Shown one piece after another: positions 2,506 through 26,193 of a stretch of 64,000 nt of DNA (positions are counted from its first letter, which is position 1; the number at the start of each line of letters is the position of its first letter). The position numbers were made by a program, and so were the translations under genes. The notes beneath the pieces are model-generated. The model saw nothing but the letters and a program-made list of their open reading frames with translations, searched no databases and was not told the DNA's origin. The DNA comes from Magnetospirillum sp. (GTDB lineage Bacteria; Pseudomonadota; Alphaproteobacteria; CACIAM-22H2): contig JAPZUA010000002.1 in the NCBI GenBank assembly GCA_027532905.1, forward strand, positions 124,001 to 188,000. Direction: 5' to 3'.

Positions 2506-3392
2506 CAGCGGGCCCTCCCGAACAGACCGGCGGGTTTGATCAGCAGCACGATTACCATCACGACAAAAATCACCGTGGACGAGGCTTCCGGATAGAACAC
2601 TTTGGTGAGCCCTTCGACGATGCCGAGCCCGAAGCCCGTGAGGATGGAACCCAGGATCGAACCCATGCCGCCGATTACGACGACCGCGAACACGACGATG
2701 ATGATGTCGGCCCCCATCAAGGGACTCACCTGGTAGATGGGGGCGGCGAGCACGCCCGTGAAGGCGGCAAGGCCCACGCCGAAGCCGTAGGTCAGCATTA
2801 CCATGCGCGGCACGTTGATGCCGAAGGACTGCACGAGCGCCGGGTTCTCGGTCGCGGCGCGCAAGTACGAGCCGAGCTTGGTCTTCTCGATCACGAACCA
2901 GGTGCCGAAGCACACCACGAGCGACACGACGACGACCCAGCCGCGATAGTTGGGCATGAACATGAAGCCGAGATCGGTGCCGCCGCGCAGTTCGGCCGGG
3001 ATGCGGTAGGGCAGGCCTGTCGAGCCGAACTGGTCGCGGAACAGGCCCTGCACGATGAGGGCGATGCCGAAGGTGAGCAAGAGACCGTAAAGATGGTCGA
3101 GCTTGTAGAGATGGCGCAGCATCGTGCGCTCGATGAGGATGCCGAAGGCGCCGACGACAACGGGGGCGACGAGAAGCGCCCACCAATAGCCGAGGCCGAG
3201 CCAGTTCAGCAGCATCCAGGCGACGAAAGCGCCCATCATGTATTGGGCACCGTGCGTGAAATTGATGATGTTCAGCAGCCCGAAAATGATCGCAAGCCCA
3301 AGGCTCAGCTGCGCGTAGAACGCGCCGTTGATGAGGCCCAGCAGAAGCTGGCCGAACAGGGCTTGCGGCGGGATACCGAAAATGTCGGGCAT
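2505..3392 (-). CDS. livH: Branched-chain amino-acid ABC transporter permease LivH
   Basis: A 295-residue inner-membrane permease. The N-terminal 'GLINGAFYAQLSLGLAIIFG' helix, 'LNIINFTHGAQYMMGAF' and the loop 'AATENPALVQSFGINV' (equivalent to the 'RAcaqd...aGInv' loop of LivH) are diagnostic. It forms the transmembrane pore with LivM. It is the second gene of a livK-H-M order on the minus strand. A 65-bp gap to livK contains a hairpin that could reduce read-through so that the binding protein is made in excess. No good ribosome-binding site is visible upstream of its ATG. Confidence 0.93.
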   Translation of the reverse strand: MPDIFGIPPQALFGQLLLGLINGAFYAQLSLGLAIIFGLLNIINFTHGAQYMMGAFVAWMLLNWLGLGYWWALLVAPVVVGAFGILIERTMLRHLYKLDHLYGLLLTFGIALIVQGLFRDQFGSTGLPYRIPAELRGGTDLGFMFMPNYRGWVVVVSLVVCFGTWFVIEKTKLGSYLRAATENPALVQSFGINVPRMVMLTYGFGVGLAAFTGVLAAPIYQVSPLMGADIIIVVFAVVVIGGMGSILGSILTGFGLGIVEGLTKVFYPEASSTVIFVVMVIVLLIKPAGLFGRAR

Positions 3393-3424
3393 GAAGCGGG
3401 GGATCCGGAGGGGGAGAAAGAAGA

Positions 3425-3447
3425 GGGGGCGACCGGCGGCCGCCCCC
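3425..3447 (-). terminator. GC-rich hairpin between livK and livH (attenuating terminator)
   Basis: A perfect 7-bp stem (GGGGGCG at 3425-3431 with CGCCCCC at 3441-3447) and a 9-nt loop lie 10 bp after the livK stop. On the minus-strand transcript it is followed by a pyrimidine-rich tract (TCTTCTTTCT), not a pure U run. It is best read as a partial terminator or an mRNA-stabilising hairpin that lets livK be expressed above livHM. Confidence 0.45.
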
Positions 3448-3457
3448 CTTTAGGCGA

Positions 3458-4666
3458 TCAGCTGCCGGCGATCGGGCACTTGCCTTCGGCCAGCGGACGG
3501 AAGGCTTCGGCGGCCGGGATCGTGGCGCGTAGCTTGTAGTAATCCCACGGGCCTTTCGATTCCGACGGCTTTTTCACTTCGTAGAGATACATGTCGTGGA
3601 TCTTGCGGCCGTCGGCACGAACGGTACCCTTGCCGAACAGCGGATCGTCGGTCGGCATGGCCTTCATGCGGTCGACGGTGGCTTTGCCGTCGGCGGCCGA
3701 TTTGTTGGCCTCGACCGCCTTCAGATAGTGCGTGACCGCACTGTATACGCCCGCATGCACCATCGTGGGATGGATGCCGCGATTGGCAGCCGCCTGCCGG
3801 CGGGCAAAAGCGCGCGTGCCGTCGTTGGCGTCCCAGTAGAAGGCGTTCGTGAAGACGAGGCCTTGGGCGGCTTCGAGGCCGAGGCCGTGCACGTCGCTGA
3901 TGAAGATCAGCAGACCCGCGAGGCTCTGGCCGCGGCGCACGATGCCGAACTCACCGGCCTGCTTGATCGTGTTGATCGTGTCGCCGCCGGCATTCGCCAC
4001 GCCGATGATCTTGGCGCGGCTTGCCTGCGCCTGCAGCAGGAACGAGGAGAAGTCGCTGCCGTTGAGCGGATGGCGAACGCTGCCCACCACGCGACCGCCG
4101 AGCTTGTTGACGACGGCCGACGTGTCGGCTTCGAGCTGGTGGCCGAACGCGTAGTCGGCCGTGAGGAAGAACCACGTGTCCCCACCCTGCTGCACGATGG
4201 CTTTGCCCGTGCCGTTGGCAAGCGCCCACGTGTCGTAGGTCCAGTGCACGGTGTTGGGCGAGCATTGCTCGCCCGTCAGCGCCGAGGTGGCCGCACCCGA
4301 CACGAGGAACGCCTTGTTCTTTTCGCGCGCCACGCCGTTGACGGCGAGGGCCACGCCCGAGTTCGGCACGTCGACGATCACGTCCACGCCGTCGCGGTCG
4401 AACCATTGGCGCGCGATGTTGGAGCCGACGTCCGCACGGTTCTGGTGGTCGGCCGACACGATTTCGACGCGCATGCCCTTTGCAGCCGCGTTGAAATCTT
4501 CGATCGCCAGGCGCGCGGCTGCGACCGAGCCCGCCCCGCCGAGATCGGCGTAGAGCGAGGACATGTCCGACAGCACGCCGATCTTGACGTTGACCTGCGC
4601 TGCCGCAGGCAGCGCCAAGCTTGCCAGTGCGACCGCACCCAGCAGCATCGATTTAAGGTTTCTCAC
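3458..4666 (-). CDS. livK: Periplasmic branched-chain amino-acid-type binding protein LivK
   Basis: A 402-residue type I periplasmic binding protein (Peripla_BP_6 family). It begins with a Sec signal peptide (about 23 residues, ending ALPAAAQ) and continues 'VKIGVLSDMSSLYADLGGAG', typical of Liv/amide-type receptors. The GTG start at 4666 was chosen because a strong GGGAGG site lies 8 bp upstream and the signal peptide follows directly. It captures the substrate in the periplasm and delivers it to LivHM. The subgroup resembles receptors whose ligands range from leucine to amides and aromatic acids, so the exact substrate is uncertain. Confidence 0.92.
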   Translation of the reverse strand: MRNLKSMLLGAVALASLALPAAAQVNVKIGVLSDMSSLYADLGGAGSVAAARLAIEDFNAAAKGMRVEIVSADHQNRADVGSNIARQWFDRDGVDVIVDVPNSGVALAVNGVAREKNKAFLVSGAATSALTGEQCSPNTVHWTYDTWALANGTGKAIVQQGGDTWFFLTADYAFGHQLEADTSAVVNKLGGRVVGSVRHPLNGSDFSSFLLQAQASRAKIIGVANAGGDTINTIKQAGEFGIVRRGQSLAGLLIFISDVHGLGLEAAQGLVFTNAFYWDANDGTRAFARRQAAANRGIHPTMVHAGVYSAVTHYLKAVEANKSAADGKATVDRMKAMPTDDPLFGKGTVRADGRKIHDMYLYEVKKPSESKGPWDYYKLRATIPAAEAFRPLAEGKCPIAGS

Positions 4667-13346: not shown

Positions 13347-14555
13347 TTAAGGCAGCCGCGCGCCTTCGGTCGCGGCTTGCGACATGTCGAAGCCTTTGAC
13401 CTTTGCGCCGGTCATGTCGGCGCCGACGAAGCTCGTGGGCTGCATGCGTGTCGAACTCGAGCCGTCGGCATTGGCGATCGGCAGCGGCAGGGCTTTGGCG
13501 CCTGCGAATTCGACCTCGCGTAGCTTCGCCCCGTCGAACATGGTGCCGTGTAGCTTGGCGCCGCTCAGATCGGCATGGAACATGTCGACGCCGCGCAGGT
13601 TGGCGAGCAGCAGCACCGCCCCGGCAAGATTGGCGCCGACGAATTTGGCGTTGCGCAAAACGGCGCCCGACAGGTCGATGCCGGAGAGGTCGAAATAGCT
13701 GAAATCGACTCCTTCGAGCAAGGCTTGGCAGCCGCTGCGCCCGACGCTTGCAAGCCACGCCGCATGGCCGTCGAGCGCGGTTTTCAGATTTGCGGGCAGC
13801 TGGTTGCGGCCCAGCAGCGGGGGCTTGGCCGACATGATCGAGCGCGCGAGATCGAAGCTTTTAGTGTCGACGTTGGTCATGTTGGCGCCGGAGAAATTGG
13901 CGCCGTCGGCTTTGGCGTTCGCGAATTTGGCGTTGGAAAGATCGGCGCCGATCAGCGAGGTTTTGCCGAGCCGCGCATCCGACAAGTCGGCCCCGCGCAG
14001 ATTGGCGTAGGCGAGATTCGTGTTGGCGAGATTGGCGCCGAACAGGATCGCCCCTTCGAGATTGGCGCCCTGGAAGCTCGCCCCCGACAGATCCACACCC
14101 GTCATCTGCGCGCGCGAGGCGGTGGCGTAATCGGCAAGGCAATCGGTGAGGTCGGTGATTTCAAGCCCGACGCGCCCCGTACCCGATTGGCCCATCATCA
14201 CGCCGCCGCGAAAATCGGCACCGGACAAGTTGGCGCCGTTCATGTTCGCGCCGCGCAGCGACGCGCCGCGCAGCACCGCATTCTGCAGATTGGCGCCGTT
14301 CATGTCGGCGTTGGTGAGATTGGCGCCGAACAGATCGGCCTCGAGCAGATCGGCGCGCGCCATGCGCGCCTCCGAGAGGTCCGTGCCCATCAGGCGCGCG
14401 CGCGCCATCGAGCGCCCTTCGAAATTTACTTTGGCAAGATTTCGGTGCGACAGGTCGTGCGGCTTGTTGGGCGCGCCGACCAATGCCTTTTTCGTCGCCG
14501 CGAGATATTTCCGAACGTCTTCGAGTTCGGTCTCCGAGCTCGGCGTGGAGGACAT
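13347..14555 (-). CDS. Pentapeptide-repeat protein
   Basis: A 402-residue protein. After about 40 N-terminal residues it consists of A(D/N)LXX pentapeptide repeats in at least three blocks (about 40-125, 150-235 and 280-345), separated by 'TGRVGLEITDLTDCLADYATA' and a Cys-containing linker around residue 260. These fold as right-handed quadrilateral beta helices that act as protein-interaction scaffolds or DNA mimics. There is no signal peptide. It stands alone, convergent with the ABC ATPase gene 29 bp away. Function unknown. Confidence 0.88.
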   Translation of the reverse strand: MSSTPSSETELEDVRKYLAATKKALVGAPNKPHDLSHRNLAKVNFEGRSMARARLMGTDLSEARMARADLLEADLFGANLTNADMNGANLQNAVLRGASLRGANMNGANLSGADFRGGVMMGQSGTGRVGLEITDLTDCLADYATASRAQMTGVDLSGASFQGANLEGAILFGANLANTNLAYANLRGADLSDARLGKTSLIGADLSNAKFANAKADGANFSGANMTNVDTKSFDLARSIMSAKPPLLGRNQLPANLKTALDGHAAWLASVGRSGCQALLEGVDFSYFDLSGIDLSGAVLRNAKFVGANLAGAVLLLANLRGVDMFHADLSGAKLHGTMFDGAKLREVEFAGAKALPLPIANADGSSSTRMQPTSFVGADMTGAKVKGFDMSQAATEGARLP

Positions 14556-16844: not shown

Positions 16845-17993
16845 TTATCCGTTTGCGCGGAACGGCTGCACGGATGCTGCACGGGTCGCGGCGTGGTCGG
16901 TCTCCCACATGTCCGGGTGTGCAGCGCCCCACACTTGCGCAATCGCGGGCACGATCTCGGACGTCGCCAGATGCGCGTAGCGCTCGACCAGCTGCAGGCC
17001 CGACCAGTCGCCGCGGTGCATCAAGCGCAGCGCATCGCGCGTCGTCGCGTAGTACCAGGTCGCCCAGGTGTGGCGCAGCCCGTGCGGCGTGATCGCGGGC
17101 CGCCATTTGACGGCCGTAAACTCCGCACCCGCCGCCGCTGCAACGAGATCGGCCGAGGGCACCGCACGGCGCCAGCCGCCGAGGCCCGCGCGCCTGCACG
17201 CCCCCCGCCACGCGGTTTTGAACTGGCCGCCCTCTTGCCGCTCTTTGTCGGCATAGGGCTCGCCGTCCGGCCGGCGGAAAACCGCCCCCTTGCGGCCGTC
17301 GAGATTGGCGAGGGCGGCGACTGCGGCTGGGGCCAGGCGCACGATGCGGTCACGGCCGTTTTTGGTTTCGCGCAGCACGCAGGATCCGCGCTGCAGATCG
17401 ACGTCGGCCCAATCGAGCTCGAGCGCTTCGGCCACGCGCGCACCCGTGCAGACCATGAACATCACGAGCGGGCGCAGCGCTTCGCCGGCGGCATCGTGCA
17501 GCCGCGTGGCTTCGTCGGGCGTGAGCCACGCCGTGCGGCCCTTGGGCTGGCGCGGCCGCTCAAAGCCGGGCCGGTCGCACCAGCCGCGCTTGGCGGCATA
17601 GGTCAAGATCGCGGTGAGCGGAATCAGCACGGCGCGAAGCTTCGTGCCCGGGGCCGCGTTCGGCCGGCAGATCGAAGCGACCGCGCGATCGGCGGCGACT
17701 TGGTCGATCTTGTGCAGCATCACGCCGCGGAAATGTTCGACGAGCCGCGCCACGCGCTTGGCGTCGCGCGGGCCCGGCGTGCGGTGCTCGAGATAGCCTA
17801 AGGCAGCTTGGGCGAAGGGGATTGCCGCGCGCTCGCCAAAGACAGCACGTTGCCACAGCTCGTGCTCGCGTTTCGCGCGGTACGCCTCGGCAAGGTCGCG
17901 CGCACCAGTGCCTGCACTTTCGTAAACAGTCTGGCCTCGGACGGTGCCGCGCACGTACCAGACGGCGCCGCGGCGCTTGAGCGTGAGGGGCAT
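16845..17993 (-). CDS. int: Phage tyrosine integrase
   Basis: A 382-residue tyrosine recombinase. An N-terminal arm-binding region (1-60, 'RRGAVWYVRG') and a core-binding SAM-like domain (60-150) precede the catalytic domain with Arg186 ('CTGARVAEALEL'), His304-x-x-Arg307 ('TPHGLRHTW'), His326 and nucleophile Tyr339 ('LVERYAHLA'). It lies 40 bp from attL and is the last gene of the leftward operon, so expression follows the leftward promoter. It should recombine tRNA-Val attB with phage attP. Its start region overlaps the xis-like gene by 196 bp. Confidence 0.96.
   Translation of the reverse strand: MPLTLKRRGAVWYVRGTVRGQTVYESAGTGARDLAEAYRAKREHELWQRAVFGERAAIPFAQAALGYLEHRTPGPRDAKRVARLVEHFRGVMLHKIDQVAADRAVASICRPNAAPGTKLRAVLIPLTAILTYAAKRGWCDRPGFERPRQPKGRTAWLTPDEATRLHDAAGEALRPLVMFMVCTGARVAEALELDWADVDLQRGSCVLRETKNGRDRIVRLAPAAVAALANLDGRKGAVFRRPDGEPYADKERQEGGQFKTAWRGACRRAGLGGWRRAVPSADLVAAAAGAEFTAVKWRPAITPHGLRHTWATWYYATTRDALRLMHRGDWSGLQLVERYAHLATSEIVPAIAQVWGAAHPDMWETDHAATRAASVQPFRANG
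16866..16886 (+). repeat. Putative integrase arm-type sites, left pair
   Basis: Two direct copies, CTGCACGGAT (16866-16875) and CTGCACGGGT (16877-16886), lie 11 bp apart (one helical turn) within the 3' end of the int gene. The same tandem pair with the same spacing and orientation occurs at 58618-58638 near attR and nowhere else that I noticed. Confidence 0.6.
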
Positions 17994-22849: not shown

Positions 22850-23118
22850 GCGCGCACCTGTCGGGCCGCGCGCAATTGAGGCTGGCGCGGCTGCAGTTCG
22901 CGCGCTTGGGTTTGGCGGCGGGCGGCTTCTTCGCGGGCGTCGTCGCCCAGATGCTCGATCTCGGCGCGCGTGAAACCTTCGCGCTGCAGATCGGCTTCGC
23001 TGCAGGACCCGAGCTCGGCCGCGATGCGGCAGATCGTGTCGGCCATCTTTTCGCGCCGGTCGGCCATTGTCCGGGGGGCCTGGGTTCGGGGGGCAGGGGT
23101 GTGCGGAGAGCTGCGCAT
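22846..23118 (-). CDS. First gene of the leftward early operon (90 aa)
   Basis: A 90-residue protein with a proline-rich start, then a helical segment ('MADTICRIAAELGSCSEADLQREGFTRAEI' split around a possible recognition helix) and a basic Gln/Arg-rich tail. A near-perfect GAGGTGA site lies 5 bp before the ATG at 23118, and the predicted leftward promoter starts about 25 bp upstream of it. By position it may be a small regulator. Confidence 0.62.
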   Translation of the reverse strand: MRSSPHTPAPRTQAPRTMADRREKMADTICRIAAELGSCSEADLQREGFTRAEIEHLGDDAREEAARRQTQARELQPRQPQLRAARQVRA

Positions 23119-23149
23119 CGGATCACCTCGTGGGGTTGCGATGCGGCGT

Positions 23150-23178
23150 ATCTAAAGATAAATCTGTAATGCCGTCAA
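23150..23178 (-). promoter_or_regulatory. Leftward early promoter (PL-like)
   Basis: On the minus strand TTGACG (23178-23173), a 17-bp spacer and TTAGAT (23155-23150) make a near-consensus sigma-70 promoter. Transcription would begin near 23143, 25 nt before the first leftward gene. An operator-like site fills the spacer. Confidence 0.7.
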
Positions 23179-23192
23179 TAGAAAAATCTGTA
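23153..23192. promoter_or_regulatory. Left operators OL1 and OL2
   Basis: Read on the minus strand, TACA-GATTTATC-TTTA (23168-23153) and TACA-GATTTTTC-TATT (23192-23177) have centres 24 bp apart. They match the sites in the repressor-cro region. OL1 lies between -35 and -10 of the leftward promoter and OL2 covers its -35 edge. They also lie within 95 bp of the start of the rightward accessory block and could control it. Confidence 0.65.
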
Positions 23193-23244
23193 GAGCGCTT
23201 TTTGGCGCATTTTTGCTAAGGTTTCATCTCAAGCGAGGTAGCGA

Positions 23245-23463
23245 ATGATCGTTGTGCTGCGGATTCTTGGAATGTGTCTGCTCGGGCTCGGCCTAATGGC
23301 GTCGCTCGGCATGTTCTTGGGACCAAGCCAATCCACCGTATTTGCTGAGACCGCCTCGATTTCGGCGATCGGCTTCGGCGGGTTGCTGTTGGCCGCAGCA
23401 AGCGCGCTCGGTCGGCTCGACGGCATCGCGGCAGCGCTCCGCGCGCGCGACTCGTCGACCTAA
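23245..23463 (+). CDS. Small two-helix membrane protein
   Basis: A 72-residue protein with hydrophobic segments at about 4-26 and 38-57. A GAGG site lies 6-7 bp before the ATG. It starts the rightward accessory block, divergent from the leftward operon. No homologue is recognised. It could work with the two following genes. Confidence 0.62.
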   Translation: MIVVLRILGMCLLGLGLMASLGMFLGPSQSTVFAETASISAIGFGGLLLAAASALGRLDGIAAALRARDSST

Positions 23464-23519
23464 TCGGCGCATGGCAGATGCGCATTGAATGTTCTGTTTA
23501 ACCAACTAGGACACCACGA

Positions 23520-24596
23520 ATGATCCCTCGGGTCGACTCGCGCGAAGTTTTGATTTTTTCGCTTTCCACGGGTGCAGTGCCGGAGCCGGACGCAAACGAA
23601 GCCGCGCATGATCTTTCGTTGCGGAGCTATATGGCGCTGTTGCAGGCAGCAGTCTCGCGCGGCGAGGCATCTTCATCTCCGACCGACGGAGAATTGATGC
23701 GCGATCCGGAAGGCGGTGAAGAAGCGGACGATCGGGCCGCACCTCCTGAAGACGGGAAAAAGCGCAATATTTTGCTGCTCAAAGCAGTCGTCGAAGAAGA
23801 CGATCATTTTGAGCTTTTCTTTCAGTCCGGCGACGCGCATGGCTCTGTGCCCGATTTTCTTGATCCGGAAACAGGTCGCGTCCGCCCTGCCGCCCGGCGC
23901 GGGCGCGAGTTGAACGCCTACTCTGCGCACCTGCTCCTGCGGAAGCAGCCACGTGTGCGGGGCAGCTATCCGGCTTTGCTGGAGCGGACCCATTTGCTCA
24001 GCCGCTCGATCGTGGTGCCCTTTCTTGCGCGCCTGATGCGGCAGCAGCTGCGCCGCATGCGTCAAAGTCCCGCCAACACGAGCGAAACCGCGCTCGCATC
24101 CCGTTTTACATTTCTAGACCCCGATCAAGTTCGCAAAAAGTTCAGGCCGCGTTTGTCGGCCACGATTCAGCAGTCGTACTCGCTCCAGCAGGCGCTGGCT
24201 GGCAACGAGGTGCAATACATCGAATTGCTCGACGACGATCCCGACGATGCCTTCGACTCCATCAACTTCACAGCTGCGCGCCGGACGATTAGGCTTGAAA
24301 TCGCGCCGCGGCGGAATTGGGGCGAGGTTTTTGCGCAAGCGTTGGCCTTTGGAAGAGAGAAGGGGTATAAATCCGCGCAAGTGAGGATCCGCCGGAGCGT
24401 CACCGGCAAAGAGGAGTCCTCAAGTCGAATCCCGCTTGAGAGCGAAAATGCGGCGGAATGGCTCTTCGGTGGTCATGAGACGATCTCTGGTTTTAGGGAG
24501 GATCTGAAGCAATGCGCGGACGAGCCGCACCCCGAAACGATCGCGAAAATGCTGAGGCTGTTGCGCCGGCAGGCGCTGTGGCGCGCGCCGGGCTGA
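23520..24596 (+). CDS. Accessory-block soluble protein (RexA-position), unknown function
   Basis: A 358-residue soluble protein with no recognised domain. The first 90 residues include an acidic segment ('EGGEEADDRAAPPEDG'); the middle has 'NAYSAHLLLRK' and a basic helix 'PFLARLMRQQLRRMR' (about residues 163-177) that could bind nucleic acid; the end is basic ('KMLRLLRRQALWR'). AGGA sits 8 bp before the ATG. It overlaps the next gene by 85 bp. Codon use is less GC-biased than that of its neighbours, suggesting recent acquisition. Its place between the left operators and the repressor equals that of lambda rexA. Confidence 0.75.
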   Translation: MIPRVDSREVLIFSLSTGAVPEPDANEAAHDLSLRSYMALLQAAVSRGEASSSPTDGELMRDPEGGEEADDRAAPPEDGKKRNILLLKAVVEEDDHFELFFQSGDAHGSVPDFLDPETGRVRPAARRGRELNAYSAHLLLRKQPRVRGSYPALLERTHLLSRSIVVPFLARLMRQQLRRMRQSPANTSETALASRFTFLDPDQVRKKFRPRLSATIQQSYSLQQALAGNEVQYIELLDDDPDDAFDSINFTAARRTIRLEIAPRRNWGEVFAQALAFGREKGYKSAQVRIRRSVTGKEESSSRIPLESENAAEWLFGGHETISGFREDLKQCADEPHPETIAKMLRLLRRQALWRAPG

Positions 24597-25201
24597 CGCC
24601 GACCGCAATCGTCGAGGCTTTCGAACTCCTCGCCCGACCTTTCGGTTATCTGCGGATTCGGCATCGCGCCAAATGGGCGGTCGATATTTGGTTTCCTGCG
24701 GCTGCCGCCGTCGTCATGACGGCACTTTACGTCTTCAGCCCTGCTCCTCCGGGCATTCTGGGCGATGGCGGCTTGCTCAAGGAGATGCGCGACGTCATCG
24801 CAATCATGGTCGCGTTCTATGTTGCTGCACTCACGGCAATCGTCAGTATCCAAAGTCCGTTTCTCGATGCCGCCATGGACGGTAAGACACCGCCCCGGAT
24901 GCCGCGCACGTATCACGGCCATACCACTTGGGAAATACCGATTCGTCGGCAGTTTCTCGGTGCGCTGCTGGGCTATCTTGTCTGCGTTCAGATACTGGTA
25001 ATCGTTGCGTCGTTCGGCATTCGCTTCGTAGCACCTTTGGCTGTCGCCGCGTTGCCGGATGTGTGGCTACTCGTATCCAAGGCGTTTGTCGTCTTCATCT
25101 GCGTGTTCGCGTTTGCGCAGGTTTCGCTAGGCACGATGATCGTGGTGCATTATCTCGGCTCTCGGCTCAATTCGCCACAGCGCGCAGCGCCACAAGATTG
25201 A
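24512..25201 (+). CDS. Four-helix membrane protein (RexB-position), unknown function
   Basis: A 229-residue protein: a soluble N-terminal 50 residues, then transmembrane helices at about 55-75, 93-113, 148-168 and 187-214, and a short polar tail. A strong GGGAGGA site 10 bp before the ATG at 24512 lies inside the upstream gene, so the two are co-translated with an 85-bp overlap. The pair (soluble protein plus four-helix membrane protein) is like lambda RexA/RexB or Kiwa-type defence in plan, but I see no family signature of either. It converges on the repressor gene 59 bp away. Confidence 0.75.
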   Translation: MRGRAAPRNDRENAEAVAPAGAVARAGLTPTAIVEAFELLARPFGYLRIRHRAKWAVDIWFPAAAAVVMTALYVFSPAPPGILGDGGLLKEMRDVIAIMVAFYVAALTAIVSIQSPFLDAAMDGKTPPRMPRTYHGHTTWEIPIRRQFLGALLGYLVCVQILVIVASFGIRFVAPLAVAALPDVWLLVSKAFVVFICVFAFAQVSLGTMIVVHYLGSRLNSPQRAAPQD

Positions 25202-25260
25202 CTGTCAGCCGGTCAATCCTCTTGCGCTGATCTTCGTATAGAGCGACTTCTTTTCGAGCG

Positions 25261-25875
25261 CTACGGCACGATCGCGCGCACGCGCGCGGCCCAATCGAGA
25301 CGCACATCCTCGCGCGGGCTGGCGTTGTGGCTCACCAAGCGCCAGAGGTTCTTCCGGCGGCCGGGTTCAAGTTTTTTCACGAGCAGCGGGCCGTCGTGCA
25401 CCTGCACGACCGACAGCCGATTGACCGCATCTTCCATCACGCCGGCCGATTGATCGACGGCGTAGTAGAGGGTCCAGCCGTCTTCGAGCTGCGGCAGCAT
25501 GGAGTCGCCGCGCACGCGCACGGCATTGACAGGACCGTCTTGGCCGGGAAACGGCGGCACGTCGTCGATCCGTTGTCCTTTGGAGAGGTCGTCGACGAGG
25601 AATATCTCGGCGCCGGCCCCGACATATCCCACGAGGGGCACGACCGATTGCATCGATTCGAGCGCCAGCTTTTGGCCTATGCCGGTTGCGAGCCAATCCG
25701 GGTTCACGCCCAACGCGCGCGCGATCTGCGGCGTGAGGCCGGATTTCTGCGCTTCCGGCTGCAGCAGATGCCAAATGCTTGCCTGCTTCACGCCGACGCG
25801 GCGCGCGAGATCGGACTGCGTGACGCCGCCCGCGTTCTTCATCGCCCAGTTCAGCCTGTCGGCATATCGTTCCAT
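25261..25875 (-). CDS. CI-like repressor with S24 peptidase domain
   Basis: A 204-residue repressor. Residues 1-60 are an XRE-type helix-turn-helix ('TQSDLARRVGVKQASIWHLL'); 80-204 form a LexA/S24 peptidase domain with a likely Ala87-Gly88 cleavage site ('GYVGAGAE'), nucleophile Ser125 ('RGDSMLPQLEDGW') and Lys167 ('LLVKKLEPG'). RecA-stimulated self-cleavage would induce the prophage. It is divergent from cro across an 84-bp switch with three operators, and its start lies 10 bp from the first of these, implying autoregulation. Confidence 0.93.
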   Translation of the reverse strand: MERYADRLNWAMKNAGGVTQSDLARRVGVKQASIWHLLQPEAQKSGLTPQIARALGVNPDWLATGIGQKLALESMQSVVPLVGYVGAGAEIFLVDDLSKGQRIDDVPPFPGQDGPVNAVRVRGDSMLPQLEDGWTLYYAVDQSAGVMEDAVNRLSVVQVHDGPLLVKKLEPGRRKNLWRLVSHNASPREDVRLDWAARVRAIVP

Positions 25876-25885
25876 TGTTTTAAAC

Positions 25886-25949
25886 TACAAAAGTCCCTGT
25901 AGATGGGCTCTACCGAATTACCTGTTGACGAGCTACAGGTTTGTCTGTA
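25886..25949. promoter_or_regulatory. Right operators: three sites between repressor and cro
   Basis: Sites TACA-AAAGTCCC-TGTA (25886-25901), TACC-GAATTACC-TGTT (25911-25926) and TACA-GGTTTGTC-TGTA (25934-25949). Centres are 25 and 23 bp apart. The outer two are perfect at the four-base arms; the middle one is degenerate. The arrangement is that of lambda OR1-OR3. Binding by the repressor and Cro is inferred from position. Confidence 0.72.
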
Positions 25950-25953
25950 AATC
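25925..25953 (+). promoter_or_regulatory. Rightward early promoter (PR-like)
   Basis: TTGACG (25925-25930), a 17-bp spacer containing the perfect operator 25934-25949, and TAAATC (25948-25953). The -35 is identical to that of the leftward promoter. The expected start point is within a base or two of the cro ATG at 25960, so the cro mRNA may be leaderless. Confidence 0.62.
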
Positions 25954-25959
25954 GGGGGC

Positions 25960-26193
25960 ATGGAGACGACATCGCCCCTGGAACGCGCCGTCCAAAAGCT
26001 CGGCGGCCAAAGCGCCACCGCCCGCGCGCTCAATGTGAGCCAAGCGTCGGTTTGGTATTGGCTCAAACACGGCAAGGTATCGGCGGAATACACGCCAAGG
26101 CTTGCCCAGCTTGCGGGCCTTGCCGCGCACGAGCTGCGCCCCGACATTTTCCCGCCGCCGGTCGCGCAATCCGAAAAAGCAGGTGCCGCATGA
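25960..26193 (+). CDS. Cro-like (YdaS-type) regulator
   Basis: A 77-residue protein with a helix-turn-helix at about 10-45 ('AVQKLGGQSATARALNVSQASVWYWL'), the YdaS/Cro form. It is divergent from the repressor and first in the rightward early operon. It should repress the repressor gene and commit to lytic growth. There is no conventional ribosome-binding site (only a G run directly before the ATG), in line with a leaderless message. Confidence 0.88.
   Translation: METTSPLERAVQKLGGQSATARALNVSQASVWYWLKHGKVSAEYTPRLAQLAGLAAHELRPDIFPPPVAQSEKAGAA

Follow-up and report, generated by a model that had tools for sequence, protein, structure and literature searches.

Two overlapping genes of a Magnetospirillum sp. 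prophage, referred to here as A and B, are by sequence a real, divergent member of the RexAB-type (PDC-M53) defense family and not a new system. They lie in a 64,000-nucleotide stretch (positions 124,001 to 188,000 of contig JAPZUA010000002.1, assembly GCA_027532905.1; hereafter the window) and very probably constitute an accessory cassette, lodged between the predicted left operators and cI, that protects against phages through abortive infection or growth arrest. PDC-M53 is a candidate defense system in PADLOC-DB, and both window proteins match its models. The initial annotation, made from the sequence, called the pair undescribed and a possible new system; this is superseded by the PADLOC-DB listing and by a relative characterized in 2026 (PMC12894663).

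Organization of the gene pair

The A gene (23520..24596, + strand) codes for a 358-aa RexA-like soluble protein (PDC-M53A by PADLOC, with an AlphaFold2 model) that is predicted to be a DNA-binding sensor, and the B gene (24512..25201, + strand) codes for a 229-aa four-helix membrane protein (PDC-M53B, by PADLOC, PHROG, and BLASTP) that is the predicted growth-arresting effector. Both frames are intact and overlap by 85 bp, and the coordinates and lengths agree with those first annotated. The early descriptions of the two products also hold: hydropathy identifies no membrane segment in A, which has a basic helix at residues 162-181 with a net charge of +6, and about four segments in B, whose ATG start at 24512 is preceded by a strong Shine-Dalgarno sequence (agggaggatctgaagcaATG) of its own. 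The unusual codon composition noted for the pair is borne out by third-position G+C, which is 0.66 in A and 0.65 in B and ranges from 0.71 to 0.87 in 14 other genes measured, the 72-aa open reading frame (ORF) described below among them. The longest open frame in 500 random samples of the region averages 180 codons with a maximum of 523, compared to the 358 observed, and open frames alone would be weak evidence of genes here; it is conservation in other phages that shows A and B to be genes.

The N terminus of B has an unusual form. The family-like core begins at about residue 33, and most PDC-M53B relatives start where residues 33-37 of the window protein fall; in 152 A-B pairs measured, the window's own two copies excepted, the ORFs overlap by at most 56 bp and gaps are mostly near zero. 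Because of these shorter overlaps and later starts, the N-terminal extension of some 30 residues, which is modeled with low confidence, is on sequence comparison a peculiarity of the window copy. An alternative GTG start at 24578, lacking a clear Shine-Dalgarno sequence, is possible and would give a 207-aa protein.

Upstream of A is a 72-aa ORF (23245..23463, + strand) with about two hydrophobic segments by hydropathy, as the initial annotation had described. Its inclusion in the module is not borne out: it has no family match in Pfam, NCBIfam, PADLOC-DB, or PHROG, and among 293 loci compared its only relatives are the window's own copies (L001 and L006). It was therefore rejected as a conserved part of the module, its relatives being absent from the other loci compared.

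Assignment to PDC-M53

Features of PDC-M53 membership seen in the window are an A profile match, a B profile match, adjacent A-B order, and homology of B to the tested RexBpp (described below). Protein A matches PADLOC PDC-M53A (PDLC04696) at 3.3e-14 over residues 79-348 of 358, and B matches PDC-M53B (PDLC04699) at 1.1e-30 over residues 39-222; two PHROGs of unknown function are also matched, 8257 by B (3.9e-20) and, weakly, 16499 by A (8e-4). Neither protein has a domain named in Pfam or NCBIfam, in agreement with the initial annotation; PDC-M53 is already listed in PADLOC-DB. The name PDC-M53 was found in no paper in a PMC literature search. Divergence of the window pair is considerable: its nearest relatives in a set of 79 non-redundant pairs are 32% identical in B and 24% identical in A, and the window A lacks some of the family glycines.

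A characterized relative in Pseudomonas putida

The tested relative is RexABpp (PP_5643/PP_5644) of P. putida prophage P1, which, in the excerpted text of its description, protects against phages with both genes needed (PMC12894663). RexApp binds DNA non-specifically and resembles RexA in HHpred and, at a Z of 8.8 with 8TWQ, in DALI. Its overexpression leads to a RexBpp-dependent growth arrest, with membrane leakage in a subpopulation; the same excerpts report neither depolarization, nor two-hybrid contact between A and B, nor complementation in trans (PMC12894663). PADLOC and PDC go unmentioned in the excerpted portion of that paper (PMC12894663).

One locus in our collection, L212, links this system to PDC-M53. 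Its B protein, 188 aa long, agrees with RexBpp in residue and number at six of the seven positions named for the latter; in place of T103, the remaining one, it has a threonine at 102. In a control with 554 non-B ORFs, no more than two of the seven residues were matched in any ORF. We take the taxon number of the L212 contig to be that of strain KT2440. The L212 A protein has a computed mass of 36.64 kDa, compared to 37.5 kDa given in the excerpts for His-tagged RexApp (PMC12894663), and the gene order of CI, a HIRAN ORF, a 78-aa ORF, A, and B corresponds to PP_3896, PP_3897, PP_3898, PP_5643, and PP_5644, insofar as the excerpts describe it (PMC12894663). Residue numbering, mass, and gene order together indicate that L212 is the KT2440 P1 locus and that RexABpp is itself a PDC-M53 pair; L212 B scores 2.8e-72 against PDLC04699, and the A protein of a close relative, L145, scores 1.5e-149 against PDC-M53A.

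Direct comparison with the window proteins is clearest for B, which is 29% identical to RexBpp over 187 aligned columns (BLASTP, 1e-15). The A proteins align pairwise over 63 columns only (E 0.003), and with so short an alignment the family link of A rests on the profile.

Predicted folds

Protein A is predicted to have a RexA/RdgC-type fold. Its AlphaFold2 model, built from 31 sequences (pLDDT 85, pTM 0.81), has lambda RexA (8twq) as its best solved match by VIA-align (Z 9.3, rmsd 3.6, 145 aligned), and this is the sole chain among 1000 with a Z of at least 8, below which scores may reflect merely a common arrangement. The next matches are Iml3 (7.1), CENP-N (6.5), and RdgC (5.8), the first unrelated fold has a Z of 5.6, and rmsd is high (7.8-10) for RdgC and for the best alignment to Iml3. 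Structural relatives of RexA given in the available portion of PMC11077077 include RdgC, Iml3, and Chl4, besides an epimerase and Cas2. With Foldseek, no match to the A model had an E below 0.01, and RexA is absent from the best 50 matches listed.

Sequence-level links to the lambda proteins are faint. A comparison of the PDC-M53A profile with a lambda-type RexA profile of seven sequences scores 21.9, a weak result next to a maximum of 18.4 in 30 shuffles and 20.3 for the reversed profile, and the PDC-M53B-RexB comparison by hhalign scores 18.1, with 3 of 30 shuffles scoring higher. The PADLOC RexA and RexB models, which recover the lambda proteins at 9e-110 and 9e-61, give no row for A or B up to E=5, and searches of solved-structure sequences with the A and B profiles gave nothing meaningful (best E of 1.3 and 0.42, respectively). 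The B model consists of four long helices and a small hairpin (pLDDT 89.5), consistent with the helices first annotated; Foldseek found no match for it in the PDB with E up to 0.001, and VIA-align, which is uninformative for B because it is a four-helix protein, returned generic helical bundles with Z up to 9.2 (PA28).

Kiwa, named initially among the defense families against which to compare the pair, combines a four-helix membrane protein, KwaA, with a soluble DNA-binding protein, KwaB, in the gene order kwaA-kwaB. The window pair has this same general make-up, but its gene order is reversed, RexA heads the fold list of A, and PADLOC-DB, which presumably contains KwaA and KwaB models, gives no Kiwa row for A or B up to E=5, with HMMER filters dropping weak matches. 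A KwaB entry is also absent from the structure matches listed for the A model, an absence that proves nothing. A Kiwa-like system is extremely unlikely.

Distribution and co-occurrence of A and B

That the two genes should recur together elsewhere was proposed as a check on the module, and they do, in many prophages. The pair is located between the lysis genes and Q in Shigella phage SfII, ahead of a holin in Salmonella phage F1055, and in two PM2-like Vibrio elements, with one copy beside a recombinase. Relatives of the SfII pair are present in 24 of 5,426 E. coli genomes, with antiterminator Q also under the match in 15 of the 24 rows. An alignment-based scan of IMG/VR confirmed 121 B relatives, of which 80 were kept; single-protein scans of the IMG/VR viral contigs with B and with A gave no relative, nor did tblastn of A against phage records. 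Immediately upstream of B, 96 of 97 loci have an A-matching ORF, which in some of them is short or runs off the contig; the set includes the two window copies and near-identical SfII-type loci, and the single miss begins inside B. A search of a genome collection with one peptide pattern gave a further view, with 68 loci whose titles are mainly of Gamma-, Beta-, and Alphaproteobacteria. A is adjacent to B in 64 of these, and the four misses comprise one cut by a contig end, one with a broken A, and two (L104 and L106) without A.

In the latter two, PDC-M53B genes are present (L106:5986-6534 and L104:5926-6537) with no A detected upstream, the place of A in L106 being taken by two short ORFs (140 and 211 aa). 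In L126, upstream of position 1696, the remains of an A gene with stops lie beside an intact B, a decayed pair.

Distance matrices of A and B are correlated (r=0.73 over the 79 non-redundant pairs; none of 1000 permutations exceeded 0.12), which fits joint inheritance of the two genes. Among a sample of 385 genomes of the host's class, PDC-M53B is found in the window's own genome only, which has one copy of B, and it is present in 5 of 398 Pseudomonas genomes sampled.

Decay could also apply to the window copy, which would then be inactive PDC-M53 cargo. This reading overlaps with that of a RexAB-type module, the odds of the two not being exclusive, and draws on divergence at several positions conserved across the family, in A as well as in B, and on the broken relative noted above, but both window frames are intact, B retains P62, F102, A105, L107, R145, R146, F148, and T208, and A retains H137, E155, and D246. 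We regard decay as unlikely.

The prophage and the cI-proximal slot

The host element is a siphophage-type prophage, with an integrase gene (16845-17993, - strand) to the left of the pair and terminase, portal, capsid, tape measure, and tail fiber genes to its right. A CI-like repressor with HTH and Peptidase_S24 domains (25261..25875, - strand; Peptidase_S24 3e-8, phrog_4 2e-26) is convergent with the pair and is followed by a Cro-like gene (25960..26193, + strand), named by position and with a relative in the same order in another prophage, L289 (tblastn). Two predicted left operators (23152-23169 and 23176-23193; CTACA-N8-TGTAG with two mismatches each) and three predicted right operators between cI and cro (25885-25902, 25910-25927, and 25933-25950; zero, two, and one mismatches, respectively) are 18-bp sites spaced 23-25 bp apart inside each cluster. 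Sites with zero or one mismatch are confined to the right cluster, eight further two-mismatch sites are scattered across the window, and with up to three mismatches there are 88 sites compared to 61.8 expected. The placement of the module between left operators and repressor thus agrees with the initial annotation. Farther left in the window is a 402-aa ORF (13347-14555, - strand) matching several PHROGs of unknown function, with phrog_7713 matched in six stretches, indicating multiple repeats.

The analogy with the lambda rex slot that was drawn initially is right in position and missed the orientation: A and B are on the + strand and cI on the - strand, so that the pair faces cI, unlike in lambda. 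The cI promoter therefore cannot drive the pair, and the cI transcript does not include it. A search of 22900-26000 gave no sigma-70-like promoter; CI might control the pair through the left operators. Tentatively, this arrangement could be a Rex module wired inversely and expressed from a left-operator promoter under or near CI control, such that exclusion would rise upon induction or repressor titration and not be constantly on in the lysogen, and with the same DNA-clamp and membrane-effector module serving both tailed phages and tailless PM2-like elements; we consider this rather doubtful as a whole.

Related prophages have other genes at this position. L289 is the nearest syntenic prophage found, with CI (57.5%), cro, and the first left-operon genes in the same order, and has in the same slot a single ORF with HIRAN and peptidoglycan-binding domains, facing cI. 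L290, from a same-genus genome with CI at 56-60%, has next to cI a 198-aa ORF with no Pfam match, also facing cI. With other genes in both, the slot looks, on these two comparisons, like a site for exchangeable cargo and not for a housekeeping phage gene.

HIRAN genes thus occupy the slot near cI in two distinct prophages (L212:4146-4559 and L289:6585-7406); in P. putida P1 the gene precedes RexABpp, and in L289 it stands in for the pair. HIRAN may be another recurrent cargo of this slot. In L290, a 516-aa ORF (2647-4197, - strand) with a long run of four-residue xAAT repeats adjoins the slot.

A location next to cI, together with the RexA/RdgC-like fold of A, would also suit a prophage regulatory or replication module, in which A mainly tunes the lysis-lysogeny switch or recombination (as RdgC does) and B is secondary; RexA can bias the lambda switch, and its DNA binding in vitro does not track exclusion in vivo, according to the available portion of PMC11077077. 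However, relatives occupy unrelated slots (between SfII lysis genes and Q, before the F1055 holin, and beside a recombinase in one of the two PM2-like Vibrio elements), the membrane partner is nearly always present (96/97 and 64/68), and the slot is filled by different genes in L289 and L290. We consider a regulatory role distinctly improbable as the explanation of the pair, and a defense module of the RexAB type the better one.

Proposed mechanism and significance

RexA and RexB of lambda are a DNA-binding sensor and a membrane protein that stops the growth of infected cells, and RexAB was the first abortive-infection system to be tied to phage defense. Transferring what is described for P. 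putida and lambda, the most likely mode of action is that a DNA-watching A activates a membrane-damaging B. Protein A, with its predicted RexA/RdgC fold, would probably dimerize as a clamp on DNA and sense something produced during infection, whether the DNA of the phage, one of its proteins, or an intermediate of replication or recombination. Once activated, A would switch on B, which may oligomerize, compromise the membrane, and halt growth before the infecting phage is completed. By analogy, we infer that the window copy works like its P. putida homologue.

If RexABpp belongs to PDC-M53, the Rex kind becomes broad, and the trigger of Rex systems could be sought with distantly related pairs, with core residues that the family conserves, and in hosts that are easy to work with. 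One IMG/VR scan each gave 121 relatives of B compared to 17 of lambda-type RexA and 13 of RexB, an uneven comparison in that the lambda-type alignments are small and close. Described Rex-like systems number only five by the count in the excerpts of PMC12894663, and the RexAB-type kind appears to be more widespread than these few examples. The window pair is a further, divergent copy whose arrangement relative to cI is different.

Comparison with known Rex systems

The RexA/RexB analogy was proposed initially from position, and it is strengthened by RexA as the top fold match of A, by homology to RexABpp, and by recurrence of the two genes together. As with lambda RexAB, a soluble protein is paired with a membrane protein and the genes occupy the interval from the left operators to cI; A is also predicted to have the RexA fold. 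The window pair differs in that rexA, rexB, and cI are all on the - strand in lambda, whereas the window pair faces cI; lambda RexA and RexB are 279 and 144 aa long, compared to 358 and 229 aa for A and B, and lambda RexB has no significant sequence link to the window B. The actinobacteriophage Rex-like pairs (Sbash gp30/31, CarolAnn gp44/43, and Butters gp30/31), set beside the window by description only, are also pairs from temperate phages. An inverted Rex pair is also present in Sbash, Butters, and Rubeelu, but in these, as far as the available portion of PMC11077077 describes them, further genes lie between the pair and the repressor, whereas the window pair adjoins cI.

The closest comparison is with RexABpp, which is in the same PADLOC family, has the same A-B order and a B protein homologous over most of its length, and has a CI repressor nearby. 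However, cI and the pair point the same way in P1, with two other genes in between, whereas the window genes face cI. The 85-bp overlap and the N-terminal extension of B are on the window side, and the two B proteins are 29% identical.
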